A stretch of DNA of 42,215 nt from an uncultured Dorea sp. (GTDB lineage: Bacteria > Bacillota > Clostridia > Lachnospirales > Lachnospiraceae). The stretch covers positions 1 through 42,215 of the forward strand of contig CANDQP010000015.1 of assembly GCA_947388185.1 (NCBI GenBank), read 5' to 3'. The position numbers and the translations under genes were made by a program. Below the pieces are notes generated by a model, which searched no databases, had not been told where the DNA came from, and saw only the letters and a program-made list of their open reading frames with translations. Shown in pieces: positions 7,241 to 40,947 of this stretch (position 1 is its first letter; each line of letters opens with the position of its first letter).

Positions 7241-7397
7241 TCTATCCTCCATTGATGATAAAATATGGAAATGAGCATAATTATCTTACGACACTTTTGC
7301 GGATAAATCAATTAGAAATTTTGAATATTCAAAAGGTGATATAGATGTGAATCTGTGTTATACTGGTTGTATTAGTTGGGTGATTGAGGTGATGGGC

Positions 7398-8219
7398 ATG
7401 GAAATGGCAGATTTTAACGGATATGAACAGAATCAGAGAATGTATGGAGGAACCGCTGGAAGGAAAATGGGTATTTCTGTTGACGGGAAGGATTATATTC
7501 TGAAATTTCCGGGGAATCTGAAAGAACAGGGAATGAAGAATATCAGGCTTAGTTATTCTAATAGTCCGGTGTGTGAATATATTGGTTCACAAATTTACCG
7601 GATGTTGGGGTTTGATGTGCATGAAACGATTCCTGGTACAAGAAATGGAAAAACGGTTGTCGCATGAGGGGACTTTCTTAGGAGTGGAGAGATATTATAT
7701 GAATTTGATAAGATTAAGGTAACCTTCGAACCACATTTTTTAGACTCCAGTGGAAATGAGACGAATGGAGTAGGCGTAGATCTGTACGAAATTCTTATGA
7801 CAATGCAGGAACATCCATTTTTAAAAGATGTTCAGGGAATCAGGGAGCATTTTTGGAATATGTTTGTAGTGGATGCATTTCTTGGAAATCCAGACAGAAA
7901 TAACAGCAATTGGGGGATTATTCTGGGCGTGGATGGTAATAAACGAATAGCTCCAATATATGCTAACGGGAATTGTCTCAATTGTAAATGGGATGAAGAT
8001 AAATCCGTATCATCTTATGGAAAATATGGAATATAGGGAATGTAGTGACGCTGTGGAAAGGTTGATTCTATTATAGGGGATTTATTACCGGAAATTAGAA
8101 GGTTGATAGAGGATATTCCAGTGATATCAGAAGTACAGAAGAGGTTCTATTATAAGATAATGGAATGCAGATATGATAAGGAGTTTCTTCCAATTTATCA
8201 GAAAATTATTGCCGAATAA
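7398..8219 (+). pseudogene. HipA/CtkA-like kinase, broken
   Basis: A decayed protein kinase of the HipA-fold (CtkA-like) group. In one continuous frame it reads YGGTAGRKMGISVDGKDYIL (ATP-binding start), then TGA at 7665-7667, then PHFLDSSGNETNGVGVDLYE, VVDAFLGNPDRNNSNWG (catalytic D-R-N-x-x-N) and IAPIYANGNCLN. The last motif normally reads YDNGN; here the metal-binding Asp is Ala (GCT). Stops cluster at 8034-8049 with a probable internal deletion, after which the C-terminal tail resumes (DLLPEIRRLIEDIP) to TAA 8217. Nonsense, missense and deletion together mark a pseudogene. The likely original start is ATG 7398, with GAGGTGAT just upstream. Confidence 0.8.
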
Positions 8220-8500: not shown

Positions 8501-9191
8501 ATGACGAAGCAAGAGCTGGCTACGAGAATATGGCAACTGCGAATGAACTCAGGAAAAATATCAAGGCAAGCGAGTACAAGGACTATATTCTTGGCTTTAT
8601 GTTTTACAAATACTTATCAGACAAGGAGCTTGATTATTTCAAAGATTGGGGTGGGGAATCAGAGGAAGATCTGGTAGATTTGGATATCGAGGTCATTGAT
8701 AAGGCCAGGGATGCCAATGGATACTTTATCGCCTATGATGACCTGTTCTCTGTCTGGAGAAATATTGTACTGCAGAAGGATAACAGTACGAAGAAATATG
8801 TGGAGGTACAAAAGGGGATCAAAGGAAAGGTATTTCCGATCTGTATGATCCAGGAAGTGTATTTCCGGTCAGAGCTAGATGAACTTGAGAGGTTAAATAG
8901 TGAGAGAATTACATTGGAAGGTGAAATAGAAGATCTGTGGAATGAGCTGGAAGAAGATACGAAGTCCAATCTGTCGAAGGAGGACAACAGTGATGATCAT
9001 TCCAAAATGGATCCGAAGAAGCTAAACGGCGAAGTGAAGCAGATTCTTTCTGAATTGTCATCCACGGAAACAGATATTTTGGAAGAGTATCTTACACTGA
9101 AGAATAAGCAGAAGAAGATTGATTTTATCAGCAGCCATTCGGAAATAGAATGGGATCAGATGAAATGTAATAAGGATATGACCTATGGGGC
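8501..9191 (+). pseudogene. hsdM: hsdM remnant (type I RM methylase subunit)
   Basis: A wrecked modification subunit of a type I restriction-modification system. ATG 8501 (GAGGAG upstream) begins MTKQELATRIW; then a one-base loss near 8530 shifts the frame to ATANELRKNIKASEYKDYIL and FMFYKYLSDKE, a typical HsdM N terminus. After about 75 residues the text jumps to a C-terminal-like segment (GKVFPICMIQEVYF and a charged coiled coil), so the catalytic core with the SAM-binding and NPPY motifs is missing. The open frame runs on to 9267, but from about 9192 the DNA belongs to hsdS in another frame. Confidence 0.8.
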
Positions 9192-9389
9192 GGCGGTAAG
9201 GACATATATAGATTTTCTATTAAGGATTCTGTGTTTTTTGAAATGCCCATTCCTATACCAGATATAGATGAGCAGAAAAAAATAAGTAAATATTTATCGA
9301 AGTTGGATTCTCTTATTACTCTCCAACAATATAAGATGGAAAATCTGCAAAATTTTAAAAAGTCATTATTGGAAAAGATGTTTACTTAG
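9192..9389 (+). pseudogene. hsdS: hsdS C-terminal remnant
   Basis: In the frame starting at 9192 the DNA encodes 65 residues typical of the C-terminal end of a type I specificity subunit: [20 protein letters not shown] followed by [20 protein letters not shown] and a TAG stop. Both target-recognition domains are gone. The fragment abuts the hsdM remnant, so a single deletion probably removed the end of hsdM and most of hsdS. Confidence 0.82.
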
Positions 9390-9405
9390 AAAGGTTTGGA
9401 ATATA

Positions 9406-9891
9406 ATGAAACTATATCATGGAAGTAATGTAGAAGTAAAAGAGCCAAATATACTTGTTGGCAGAAGAACGCTTGATTTTGGTCAGGGATTTTATACAAC
9501 ATCTGACTATAACCAAGCAGAAAAATGGGCTTTTAATATTTCAAAGCGCCGGAATGTCGGGAAACCAGTTGTTTCTGTGTATGAATTTGATGAAATAGTT
9601 CTCTCAGAATTAGTTGTTCTCGAATTCAGTACACCAAACAGTGATTGGCTGCATTTTGTGTCTGAAAATAGGACAGATACTTATCGTGGTATGGAGTATG
9701 ATTTTATAAAAGGTCCAATTGCCAATGATAATACGATGCCTGTATTGAATATGTATATATCCGGGTTCGTTGATGAGGATTTTGCAATAAAGCGTTTGTT
9801 GCCGCAGAAACTCAAAGATCAATGTGTATTCAAAACAGAAAAAGCGATTCCGTTTCTTAAGTTCAGGGAGGTAATATTATGCAAAAAATGA
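9406..9891 (+). CDS. DUF3990 protein, ADP-ribosyltransferase-like toxin candidate
   Basis: A 161-aa protein matching DUF3990: it opens [11 protein letters not shown], then [20 protein letters not shown], and later [13 protein letters not shown]. The YHG(S/T) His, the GFYxT Tyr and a downstream acidic residue resemble the H-Y-E layout of ADP-ribosyltransferase-fold proteins, so a toxin that modifies a cellular target is a reasonable inference, not shown here. The last 13 nt overlap the next gene, and the next two genes look like its partners. It is full length and in frame, unlike the restriction genes on both sides. Confidence 0.75.
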
Positions 9892-10124
9892 TGAGTGAGG
9901 TATTGCATTATTATGACAGGGAAGTTGTAAAAATGATGATAGATAAATATGGTCTGATGCCTATGGAAGCAATCAACAGTTTTATAAAATCTCAAACCCA
10001 CATTATGTTAGAAGATATACAGTATGGTATGGATGAGTTCGGTTATCCTGCTATATTTGATATGTGGGAATGTGAGAAAATAACGGGAGATCCTAGAAAT
10101 TCCATATATATAAGAGGAGAATAA
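9879..10124 (+). CDS. DUF3791 protein, antitoxin-like partner
   Basis: An 81-aa protein resembling DUF3791 (helical; [20 protein letters not shown] then [15 protein letters not shown]). Proteins of this type commonly accompany DUF3990 genes. ATG 9879 overlaps the DUF3990 gene by 13 nt and has GGGAGG 7 nt upstream, implying translational coupling. An antitoxin or immunity role is inferred from this arrangement alone. Confidence 0.65.
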
Positions 10125-10125
10125 T

Positions 10126-10335
10126 ATGACAGCAGAACATGAATTTTATCTATATTTATTGGAATGTTATGCCGCGTATAAGAATAAACCGACAGGTGAG
10201 GTACTTGAAGAGTGGGATTTATTGAATATATCGGATTTTATTTTTAATATGTACGAAATGTACCATTCTGAATCTATAGAAAATGCTTTTAAAGATATTG
10301 ACAGTCTGACTATGACTGGCAAACCTGCCTGGTAA
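10126..10335 (+). CDS. Second small DUF3791-like protein
   Basis: A 69-aa acidic helical protein (EFYLYLLECYAAYKNKPTGE; NISDFIFNMYEMYHSESIEN). It begins 1 nt after the previous stop, with AGAGGAGA upstream of ATG 10126. The length, composition and position fit a second DUF3791-like component of the trio; the assignment is weaker than for the first. Its stop is 3 nt before sequence recognisable as hsdR remnant, so the module sits exactly between RM fragments. Confidence 0.6.
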   Translation: MTAEHEFYLYLLECYAAYKNKPTGEVLEEWDLLNISDFIFNMYEMYHSESIENAFKDIDSLTMTGKPAW

Positions 10336-10336
10336 A

Positions 10337-11391
10337 TCGAAAACAACATAACAAAGGAGAAATGGATATTCTCTCCGGGGGAAGTGGCAGGCGGAACGTC
10401 CAAATACCAGATCGCTGAACAGGTTGTGTTCAACCAGCAGGAAGATACGCGGGACAGAAGAGGCGACATTACACTTTTGATCAATGGTATGCCGGTGATC
10501 CATATCGAGTTGAAAGCGAGTGGCGTAGATGTTTTTGAGGCTGCACATCAGATAAAGAAATATATACAGGAGAGGAAATTCCAGGGATTTATGAGTCTGG
10601 TGCAGGTGTTCTGGGCGATTACGCCGGAAGATGCGTTGTATTTCGCGAATCCTGGAACGGCAGAGCGGATGAACTCCGCATTCTTCTTCCACTGGGAGGG
10701 CAGGGACAATCATATTATCCGGGACTGGAGAGAGATCATAGACGGCGAATCCAGGATCCTGTCCATTCCTGAGGCGCACCGAATGATCGGATGTTATGCT
10801 GTCGCCGACAAGGAGAAGGATACCAGATACAAAAGGCGCCAAATTTAAAGAAGATTTGATGGCGTGATTGTCTCATTCGAAGCCATATACGAAAATCGGA
10901 AATAATCATGACAAGTGTCTGGATATTGTGATCGTTGTAAATCAGTTGTTGACAGGATATGATTCGCAGTATGCCAATGTGCAGGTAGATGATATCGATG
11001 AAAATATAAAGACACTCAATCGGACTTATAAGAATATCTGTGATATTTTTGCGATTGACCATATCGATCATTTTGAGCAATTGCCAAGATCAGAGGAGAG
11101 GAGAACAGACAGAAGTTCAGAAGAGAATTCTATCGCTTGAAAAGTACACTCAGAACGGCGATCGAGGTATTTACTGCTAATTTCGGAATTGATGCGGATA
11201 TTTTCTATGACTTATATGTTCATACCATGGGCGGAAAGGTTGATGCAATAAAACTGGAAGTGATAGAGAAGTCGGCAGATATCAATAAAGTAAAAGAATA
11301 TTTTGATGCTAAGAACATGCTGAGTGCCGGAGGAAAGCTGCATGCAGAGCTAAAGCGGTTCATTGAAGAGCAGAAAGCGGAATCGGATTGA
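10337..11391 (+). pseudogene. hsdR: hsdR remnants (type I restriction subunit)
   Basis: At least three pieces of a type I restriction subunit. 10337-10848 encodes the N-terminal nuclease domain with RGDITLLINGMPVIHIELKA (D...ExK catalytic layout) and ILSIPEAHRMIGCYAVADKE. It then breaks, and 10868-11140 carries a helicase-domain shred (LDIVIVVNQLLTGYDS). A last frame, to 11391, gives a possible C terminus (KVKEYFDAKNM, KLHAELKRFIEE), which is less certain. The ATP-binding motor motifs and most of the protein are missing and the frames do not connect, so no working endonuclease can be made. Confidence 0.8.
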
Positions 11392-38652: not shown

Positions 38653-39153
38653 ATGCAGGTAGAATTATTTTCAGACGAATATAATGTCAGATTACTTACC
38701 GGTGCGGATATTAGTGATATATACTGTCTGCTTAGTAAGAATGTTTTATATTATGAATATTGTCCGCCTTTTGTCACAAGGCAGTCCATTCAGGAGGATA
38801 TGGAGATACTGCCGCCTGGAAAGGAAAAGAAGGACAAATATTATGTGGGATTTTATCAGGGAAACAAACTGATTGCAGTGATGGATTTGATTGATGGATA
38901 CCCTGAATCGGGGATTGTGTATATTGGTTTTTTTATGACAGATACATTGGTACAGGGCAGGGGTGTCGGAACCGCGATTATAGAATATTTGTGCGGGTAT
39001 CTTTCAGAACAGGGATATGAGTCGGTTCGGTTGGCCTGGGTAAAGGGGAATCCGCAGTCAGAACATTTCTGGCTTAAGAATGGATTTGTGCGGCTAAGAG
39101 AGACGACGAGCAACGTGGCAGATGAAGTGATATTGGCTGAGAGGATTTTGTAA
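38653..39153 (+). CDS. GNAT N-acetyltransferase
   Basis: A 166-aa GNAT acetyltransferase: IVYIGFFMTDTLVQGRGVGT (motif A with the GRGVGT loop) and SEHFWLKNGFVRLRE (motif B). The family start fits ATG 38653 (MQVELFSDEYNVRLLTGADI); the in-frame GTG 38629 is possible but has a weak ribosome site. It differs from the preceding GNAT, so this is not a recent duplication. Its stop codon shares the reading frame of the following DUF4325 remnant. Confidence 0.82.
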   Translation: MQVELFSDEYNVRLLTGADISDIYCLLSKNVLYYEYCPPFVTRQSIQEDMEILPPGKEKKDKYYVGFYQGNKLIAVMDLIDGYPESGIVYIGFFMTDTLVQGRGVGTAIIEYLCGYLSEQGYESVRLAWVKGNPQSEHFWLKNGFVRLRETTSNVADEVILAERIL

Positions 39154-39237
39154 GAAATTAAGGGATGCGATCCTGGAGAATTTGCTATTTGGTCGGATAA
39201 TTCCATATATTCTTATGGATGCCATGAAAAAGAGCGT

Positions 39238-39639
39238 TTGATCCAGCCGCATTTGTTTGCATATTATACGGAACTTTTAAATATCGGAACGATGGTGGTA
39301 ATGAAGCTTGAGAATCAGACAAACCGCAAATTAAAGGAGGTGTTTGATATGTATGCTCCGATAGAAGAAGGATTCATACACACGGTAATACCTGTCAAGG
39401 AAGTATGTTCGTATGGGGAACCGATTGCCAGGTCTCAGGCCCGGAGGATATTATATCGTCTGGAAGAGTTTCGGAAGGTAGAACTGGACTTTGGCGGGGG
39501 TGATTTTATGGGACAGGGATTCGCAGATGAGGTGTTCCGGGTATTTCAGAATAAGTATCCGGATATTGAGTTGATTCCGGTGAATGCGAATGAGTCGGTA
39601 CTTGGTATGGTTCATCATGTGACTGCGGGAATGAGGTGA
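39238..39639 (+). pseudogene. DUF4325 (STAS-like) protein, N-terminally truncated
   Basis: The C-terminal part of an ATPase/STAS-like protein. ELDFGGGDFMGQGFADEVFR is the DUF4325 signature. Upstream, GTMVVMKLENQTNRKLKEVF resembles the end of a GHKL ATPase domain that is otherwise missing. The same frame is open back to the stop of the GNAT gene at 39153 with no ATG, so the start (TTG 39238 or a later ATG such as 39349) is uncertain and the gene was probably beheaded by a deletion. GTG of the next gene is 7 nt downstream. Confidence 0.6.
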
Positions 39640-39645
39640 TGTGCG

Positions 39646-40035
39646 GTGGATGCGAATGAATATATGTGCCAGGATTTTGAGAAAGATAGAATCATTGAGG
39701 ATTATTCTTTCGAAGTATTTTGGAAGGATGATATTACTGCGAGTGTAAATGTACACGGGGATAAGGTCAGGGTTACGCGGTATGTAAGACATCCTCTCAA
39801 ACAGCTTTTTGCAGAAGATGTTATGACGAGATATCAGTTGAACCGTATTCTGGAGATGCGCTGCTGGGATAGAAGAAGAGAAGATATTGATGAGATCTTG
39901 GTGCATCTGGGGCTTAAGGAGTATAATCCCTATGAGATTGTTAGGAAGACACATGGAGTGTCGTGGAATGATTATATTTGGTTCCGATTTCCAGGTGAGA
40001 AGCTGACTAGTAGAGACGTGTTGGTGAGGGATTAG
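39646..40035 (+). CDS. Uncharacterised partner of HipA-like kinase
   Basis: A 129-aa mixed alpha/beta protein of unknown function (SFEVFWKDDITASVNVHGDK; ILEMRCWDRRREDIDEILVH; HGVSWNDYIWFRFPGEKLTS). GTG 39646 has GAGGTG 7 nt upstream. Its stop is 2 nt before the kinase start, so the two form an operon in toxin-antitoxin order: small protein first, kinase second. No helix-turn-helix can be seen, unlike HipB, so it would be a different kind of antidote, adaptor or substrate. Confidence 0.65.
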   Translation: MDANEYMCQDFEKDRIIEDYSFEVFWKDDITASVNVHGDKVRVTRYVRHPLKQLFAEDVMTRYQLNRILEMRCWDRRREDIDEILVHLGLKEYNPYEIVRKTHGVSWNDYIWFRFPGEKLTSRDVLVRD

Positions 40036-40037
40036 GA

Positions 40038-40802
40038 ATGTTTCGGGAGACAATTGAAAATGAGTATATTGTGATACAGGAGGGGACGAGTGAAGGAACT
40101 CAGATGAAATACCGAAAAGGAGATTATTGGTATAAGAAAGACTGCCGTGGTAAGGAAGGACTTGTGGAATATTTGGTTTCTGAGATGCTTAAATATTCGA
40201 CTTTGGATTTAGCAGAATATGTAGTATATGAGTATGGATACATTAATGAAGCAAGAGGGTGCCGCAGTAAGAATTTTTTAGAGGCAGGAGAAGAATTGAT
40301 AACTTTATACCGTCTGTATTATAATGAATTCGGAAAAGATTTATCTCAGGTATTGGCACTTATGGAGACAATGGAAGAACGGATAGAATACGTTATAAAA
40401 TTTGTCTGGCAGAGTTGTGGATTAGATATAACAGAATATTTAAAAAAAGTATTTACGTTGGATATGCTTATTCTTAACGAAGACCGGCATTTGAATAATC
40501 TGGCAGTTGTACTTCGGGGGAATCGGTTTGTATCGGCACCAATATTCGATAATGGAATGTCCTTGTTGACGGCGAATCAGAGTGTTAATTGGCATTTCCC
40601 TGTAGAAGAGAATGTAAAAAGGGTAGTTGCAAGACCATTTTGCGGATCACATGAGAAGATGTTTCACTATTTTGGACAGGGTTTTTGTGTGGATTTTGCT
40701 GCGGTACAGCAATGGATTGAAGAGGAAGAAGATACAAATGAAAAAAAGGTCTTGAAGTATCAACTGCAGAGATATTCTTTTTTGGCAACGGAATCATTAT
40801 AA
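40038..40802 (+). CDS. HipA-like Ser/Thr kinase
   Basis: A 254-aa HipA-fold protein kinase. It shows a glycine-rich ATP loop (EGTSEGTQMKYRKGDYWYKK with Lys33/34), the catalytic motif ILNEDRHLNNLAVV (Asp149, Asn154; five apart as in HipA) and the metal-binding IFDNGMSLL (Asp171). All key residues are present and the frame is open, so it should be active. It is shorter than HipA and lacks its N-terminal subdomain. It is preceded after 2 nt by the 129-aa protein and followed by a Nudix remnant. Target unknown. Confidence 0.78.
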   Translation: MFRETIENEYIVIQEGTSEGTQMKYRKGDYWYKKDCRGKEGLVEYLVSEMLKYSTLDLAEYVVYEYGYINEARGCRSKNFLEAGEELITLYRLYYNEFGKDLSQVLALMETMEERIEYVIKFVWQSCGLDITEYLKKVFTLDMLILNEDRHLNNLAVVLRGNRFVSAPIFDNGMSLLTANQSVNWHFPVEENVKRVVARPFCGSHEKMFHYFGQGFCVDFAAVQQWIEEEEDTNEKKVLKYQLQRYSFLATESL

Positions 40803-40947
40803 GATTCTTCTGGTCAGGGAGAGGAAAGGCACGTGGTCGTTGCCGGGCGGATGGGTAGACGTCAATGTATCGGTTGGGGAGAATACGGTCAAGGAAGTCA
40901 AAGAAGAGGCGTATCATGCAGAGCACTGGGTTATATTATTTGATTAA
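40792..40947 (+). pseudogene. Nudix hydrolase remnant
   Basis: In the frame starting at 40792 the DNA reads NHYKILLVRERKGTWSLPGG, WVDVNVSVGENTVKEVKEEA, then loses the family and stops at TAA 40945. This is the start of a Nudix box (GGWVDxxxSxxENxxKEVxEEA) without its last residues and without N- or C-terminal domains. It overlaps the kinase stop by 11 nt in another frame. Confidence 0.75.

Follow-up and report, generated by a model that had tools for sequence, protein, structure and literature searches.

Modules in which a Hip-type kinase is accompanied by a HipS protein have already been published, as the accessible parts of PMC8262856 and PMC6581861 show; the accessible text of the latter yielded nothing on Firmicutes, Clostridia, Lachnospiraceae, or on bicistronic or fused forms. 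In Escherichia coli HipBST, as described in the accessible text of PMC10627512, HipS inserts its Trp65 next to the kinase loop, and its Glu63 is directed into the active site. Here we analyse a two-gene pair from an uncultured Dorea sp. (Lachnospiraceae), carried on a stretch of 42,215 nucleotides (assembly GCA_947388185.1, contig CANDQP010000015.1, positions 1–42,215 of the forward strand; hereafter the window). The first open reading frame (ORF; 39646..40035, + strand, GTG start) encodes a HipS-like partner of 129 amino acids, the predicted antitoxin, with a HipS-type domain over approximately residues 19–129. The second (40038..40802, + strand) follows after 2 nucleotides and encodes the predicted toxin, a HipA/HipT/CtkA-type kinase core of 254 amino acids without the N-terminal subdomain. 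This arrangement of two adjoining frames with an intact kinase, from which the original prediction set out, was confirmed. Given the gene order, the folds predicted for the two parts, the existence of natural fusions, a linkage that is nearly constant and low ratios of non-synonymous to synonymous substitution (dN/dS), we consider it likely that these two genes make up a type II toxin–antitoxin module of the Hip kinase superfamily, with the kinase as putative toxin, the 129-amino-acid protein as putative antitoxin and no HipB.

The two genes form a real, intact and conserved module. In the window, as in genomes G003, G005, G007, G008 and G010, the two ORFs are intact, and dN/dS is low for both genes by comparison with loci L048, L051 and L052. 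These findings speak against the view that the 129-amino-acid gene and the kinase are functionless remnants of a decaying accessory region, a view that the decayed neighbours detailed below (a beheaded DUF4325 gene, a Nudix fragment and a broken kinase at 7.3–8.0 kb) could encourage but that we regard as highly improbable.

The 254-amino-acid protein is, by prediction, a HipA/HipT/CtkA-type kinase core that matches its HipS-like partner. It starts just ahead of the Gly-rich loop, with N-subdomain 1 residing instead in the separate 129-amino-acid protein, and its match to HipA_C is weak, at 22.6 bits against a cut-off of 30.5. An alignment of 50 kinases bore out the claim that the ATP loop and the catalytic residues are kept. 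The Gly-rich (ATP) loop GTSEGTQMK (kinase residues 16–24, 40083..40109, + strand) has S18, G20 and K24 in all 50 rows, G16 in 48 and Thr or Ser at position 17 in all 50; Asp149 and Asn154, the ends of the catalytic motif (40482..40499, + strand), and the metal-binding Asp171 of the FDNG motif (40548..40550, + strand) are likewise invariant in 50/50. The kinase of the window matches PADLOC PDC-M03A at 1.6e-13, and 50/50 aligned kinases match a PDC-M03A model at E 0.01 (here and below judged by E-value). A search with the Pfam model Couple_hipA (E <= 1e-5) gave matches in 2 of 149 genomes of the phylum and none in the genome of the window, so this model appears blind to the present branch.

The original prediction took the 129-amino-acid protein to be uncharacterised and without a helix-turn-helix (HTH). 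A novelty of this protein was not upheld: by predicted fold it is HipS-like, that is, the detached N-terminal subdomain of a HipA kinase. This identity rests on VIA, on natural fusions, in which longer relatives join a HipS-like part and a kinase part in one chain, and on HIRAN relatives. The second half of the claim held, since neither Pfam nor NCBIfam gave a match to the partner at E 1, and the partner is for that reason taken to lack an HTH. Foldseek with the partner alone gave nothing significant, and the partner profile found no match in classical HipA (one HipA sequence only). When the partner alignment was used as a profile against the PDB, it returned HTH proteins (HigA, HipB, SinR and others), with HipS not among them; HigA, HipB and SinR were matched by the HTH part of that alignment. 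The PADLOC model PDC-M03B matches the partner at 2.6e-5 over 44 of 232 model positions; alignment is to the middle of the PDC-M03B models only (approximately positions 58–117 of 232–250), and the commonest of these models matches 32 of 64 aligned partners at E 0.01. A conserved feature of the 64 aligned partners is an RC[WFYM] loop, encoded in the window by the codons for Arg72-Cys73-Trp74 (39859..39867, + strand), of which Arg72 and Cys73 are invariant (64/64) and position 74 is W, F or Y in 62/64.

Homologs of the two genes, whose adjacency the original prediction had proposed as a check, adjoin with near constancy when approached from either side. In a kinase-only scan of genome contigs, restricted to the best 80 of 515 relatives, a partner ORF lies directly upstream on the same strand in 79/80 loci; the 80th (L115) starts at a contig edge, and in one locus (L098) the kinase is truncated. 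The same order was found in 29/29 loci of the family (L019–L047), several of them identical to loci of the first set. Starting from the partner, a search of 61 genomes gave 15 places, 14 with an adjacent kinase; this lay downstream of the partner in 12 and upstream in 2, the HIRAN-type loci L009 and L010, while the fifteenth place, L013, showed no kinase. A kinase remnant was sought beside the orphan partners L013, L206, L208, L209 and L214 and none was found (best E 0.51).

Pairing was also assessed across 397 genomes of the family, with up to 6 or 8 candidates scored per genome and the partner matches taken from among the matches listed. The 80 strongest split partner matches (down to 1.7e-13) were set against the 78 strongest kinase matches (down to 8.5e-19), leaving out the long fused frame G269. 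The other gene adjoins 71 of the 80 strongest listed partners and 70 of the 78 strongest kinases, with the partner downstream in 3 of the 71 adjacent matches. At G336:C178:8379-10529 a partner-kinase-partner-kinase tandem is present, so that there is no reversed order there. The 8 remaining kinases comprise 3 that proved paired on reading, 2 at contig ends, 2 that are broken (G302 and G036, without a partner visible to profiles) and 1 intact and alone (G284); the 9 unpaired partners comprise 1 at a contig end, 4 with kinase remnants only and 4 without a kinase. Counting intact genes only, 5 partners lack an intact kinase and 1 kinase lacks a partner. In this sample the kinase is thus lost more often than the partner, as a toxin–antitoxin pair should show, although the numbers are small.

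Kinase relatives were also found in 12 plasmid records, 5 phage-collection records and 1 viral contig, and a partner stands beside the kinase in all 7 mobile neighbourhoods inspected (5 plasmid, 1 phage record and the viral contig). It is upstream in L144, L145, L147 and L148, and downstream in the Bacillus-group plasmids L146, L149 and L150. The phage record, L148, is weak evidence of phage carriage because its neighbouring genes look bacterial (labels from reading); in L144 the module adjoins what we take to be lysis-type genes.

This distribution bears on whether the pair could instead be a non-toxic, two-chain signalling kinase, its partner serving as an activating or substrate-binding subunit in the manner of HipA's own N-terminal subdomain. 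We consider this improbable, given that kinase matches at E <= 1e-8 are patchy (104/397 genomes of the family), that plasmids and one viral contig carry the pair as well, that the kinase is the gene more often lost, and that HipS inhibits the kinase in two hipBST systems according to the accessible text of PMC10627512 and PMC10653801.

Across the relatives the HipS core of the partner is constant and its N-terminal module varies. Partners have no such module (the headless form, as in the window), an HTH, which amounts to a fusion of HipB with HipS, or a module of about 110 amino acids with the signature YYYxQW, here called YYY. Among 78 relatives classed by motif and length there were 26 with none, 29 with an HTH and 23 with YYY; L098 and L115 were dropped from this count, and L102 and L122 were assigned manually to the class without a module, as their extra N-terminus precedes an internal start codon located at the domain. 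Of the 64 partners scanned against Pfam at E 0.1, 21 matched HTH_3. The YYY module stands ahead of the HipS-like domain in both split and fused forms (L055–L073, L076, L087, L095, L100, L128 and L129, of which L128 and L129 are fused kinases), and gave no Pfam match in the 5 partners and 1 fusion scanned.

A quick, midpoint-rooted kinase tree of 77 rows (the window plus 76 relatives with a kinase of >= 235 amino acids; L060 and L074 dropped) has these modules switching several times. The 8-row headless group that includes the window is nested in a group of 30 rows, the remaining 22 of which carry YYY, with Shimodaira–Hasegawa-like approximate likelihood ratio support of 92 for the 8 and 94 for the 30. 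Loss of YYY is therefore the simplest origin of the window's form, and its partner probably did lose this module; the assignment is not firm, as the well-supported branches alone also allow that the YYY rows may form one group without that of the window, and several forks are open. No HipB-like gene was seen in 27 headless loci on reading up to 3 nearest upstream ORFs, without a profile scan. Among these upstream ORFs, L077 has an AraC-type regulator, and L119:2-646 a serine-recombinase-like gene that overlaps the partner gene by 4 nucleotides (both labels from reading), resembling hipMP with its resolvase-like antitoxin.

How such a module might work can be sketched from the Hip systems already described. 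The 254-amino-acid Ser/Thr kinase core would be the toxin, and the partner would dock on its N-lobe and hold the Gly-rich loop inactive. Once the partner is no longer available, whether through loss, degradation or titration, the kinase would become active and phosphorylate a target that the cell needs for growth, which would then stop. This target would most likely belong to translation and be an aminoacyl-tRNA synthetase, as it is for HipA and HipT (TrpS in hipBST); a role in DNA stabilisation or phage arrest may be added. Many other members carry, at the N-terminus of the partner, what would be a DNA-binding or sensor part; the form found in the window lacks it. If Glu63 is assumed to be the acidic residue of the HipA-type LPD/LPE motif, its counterpart is Asp75 (Asp or Glu in 57/64 partners) and Trp65 corresponds to Arg77, a variable position, with Trp74 not at the Trp65 position. 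As the place of Trp65 varies while the Arg-Cys-aromatic loop is conserved, the inhibitory wedge may stand a few residues away from its place in HipBST.

A special case of the toxin–antitoxin reading, and compatible with it, is that the system is primarily one of anti-phage abortive infection in which the N-terminal module of the partner acts as a sensor, the headless form then being a reduced one that would be set off when the partner itself is lost or bound. The several changes of N-terminal module on the kinase tree are consistent with this, as are the PADLOC-DB candidate PDC-M03 models, which match both proteins and 50/50 kinases; phage defence is also proposed for HIRAN-bearing relatives by Gerdes et al. 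in the accessible text of PMC8262856. However, the pair in the window has no recognisable sensor module, PDC systems are, according to the accessible text of PMC11811056, candidates from Payne et al. 2021 that have not been published, and a literature search found no paper on PDC-M03. We treat this reading as possible but doubtful. Literature searches likewise found nothing linking HipA, phage defense and Lachnospiraceae, nor CtkA, HipA and toxin–antitoxin.

A broader proposal, which we put forward tentatively, is that this Clostridia branch of Hip systems combines a constant HipS-kinase core, in which the Arg-Cys-aromatic loop would block the ATP loop, with exchangeable antitoxin N-terminal modules (Xre-type HTH, YYY or none; C-terminal HIRAN in relatives), the module choosing the signal that releases the kinase, be it promoter DNA, a phage product or damaged DNA.

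The surroundings of the pair in the window, a mosaic among close relatives, had been described as a beheaded GHKL/DUF4325 gene upstream and a Nudix remnant downstream. The former is indeed a remnant and the latter reads like one, and DUF4325 as a part of the module was not upheld. The GHKL-DUF4325 remnant (39154..39639, + strand; DUF4325 at 57.8 bits), whose frame opens after a stop at 39151–39153, includes the ORF at 39238–39639, which is a beheaded gene. Its intact counterpart, of 351 amino acids, is found at L048:2547-3602 (= L004), with DUF4325 at 9.2e-17, HATPase_c at 2.6e-5 (25.1 bits against a Pfam cut-off of 26.4), a weak winged-helix match (0.01) and a match to phrog_3364 at 3.6e-10. 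When intact relatives were checked for this gene, as the original prediction had proposed, reading of the nearest upstream ORFs in the 27 headless loci showed it intact in 1 (L048), as a remnant in 2 (L049 and L050, whose kinases are 98–99% identical to that of the window) and not at all in 24. GHKL/DUF4325 was accordingly rejected as a third component, all 3 of these 27 loci being close relatives of the window's locus.

Downstream, a Nudix-like gene fragment (40801..40947, + strand; from translation and blastn against L048) presumably represents a Nudix C-terminal piece, as judged by motif. L048 has about 250 additional nucleotides between the kinase and the Nudix-like stretch (blastn), and the two window-L048 matches that flank this gap share 10 nucleotides at the kinase stop (40796–40805), a pattern to be expected if a deletion by short homology had extended into the Nudix-like gene. 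The DUF4325 gene and the Nudix scrap look like chance neighbours and are context, not parts of the module.

A second HipA/CtkA-like kinase with its own small partner had been placed at 7.4–8.5 kb. The frame concerned (7302–8036, + strand) has stops at 7665–7667 and 8034–8036 and reads YANG in place of the expected FDNG, with loss of the metal-binding Asp; it is a broken gene and was rejected as a parallel working module. Near it, at 9406–10335, are three small ORFs that we take to resemble DUF3990 and DUF3791 proteins. An HsdM N-terminal domain (PF12161, 8.1e-10) is encoded at 8530–9267, and short frames at approximately 9231–10848 presumably derive from HsdS and from a subunit of a type I restriction enzyme, which suggests a decayed type I restriction-modification locus.

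The original prediction of a new toxin–antitoxin-like module, distinct from classical hipBA, therefore stands in part: the linkage in 79 of 80 loci and the low dN/dS support the module, while its novelty is reduced by a partner that is HipS-like, by the published modules and by the PADLOC candidate models that match both proteins. The kind is known, a split HipA-type kinase with a HipS-like putative antitoxin; this branch and its exchangeable inhibitor front end may be undescribed. An unnamed gene of gut Lachnospiraceae gains a testable function, fused and split Hip kinases are joined into one series, and HipB-like and HipS-like parts are found fused in one putative antitoxin among the relatives. 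Relatives whose partners are headless, carry an HTH or carry YYY, all with one kinase core, offer a natural set for determining the share of the N-terminal module in neutralisation, and it is this exchangeable module that is worth following.

Among the known systems, CtkA of Helicobacter pylori has only 16% identity to the kinase, and to our knowledge no HipS partner of CtkA has been described. The pair shares with hipBA the kinase fold and the HipA N-terminal subdomain, but here the subdomain is detached into a separate protein and there is no HTH antitoxin. With hipIN/hipL and PDC-M03 it shares a HipS-like domain and a Hip kinase core, the PDC-M03 models matching both proteins, whereas HipN and HipL have a C-terminal HIRAN domain. 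The hipRG system (an HTH/Stl-like antitoxin and a short kinase) is nearest to the HTH-fused relatives, not to the window's partner, which lacks an HTH; HipG kinases are said in the accessible text of PMC8262856 to lack a conserved Ser/Thr at the Gly-rich loop, in contrast to Ser18 (50/50) and Thr/Ser17 (50/50) here. None of the ten organisations described in the accessible text of that paper is an HTH-HipS fusion; the HTH-fused relatives may overlap hipRG.

The closest likeness is to hipBST (E. coli O127:H6 and Legionella pneumophila) and hipJS (Gerdes et al. 2021, PMC8262856, in its accessible text). As in hipBST, a HipS-fold protein is encoded directly upstream of a short kinase core that lacks N-subdomain 1 and has conserved Hip motifs, with Ser/Thr beside the loop glycine. 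Unlike in hipBST, there is no HipB gene, a DUF4325 remnant standing upstream instead, and many relatives fuse an HTH to the HipS domain; the kinase is shorter (254 amino acids) and remote in sequence (phmmer E 0.064 to HipT(Lp)), and HipS Trp65 is not conserved at its inferred place. Like hipJS, the pair has two genes, a short kinase and a HipS-only putative antitoxin without an HTH, but HipS is downstream of the kinase in hipJS and upstream in the window and in 79/80 loci; the hipJS order is matched by L146, L149, L150, L009 and L010. The pair thus falls between hipBST, from which it differs in the missing HipB, and hipJS, from which it differs in its reversed gene order.
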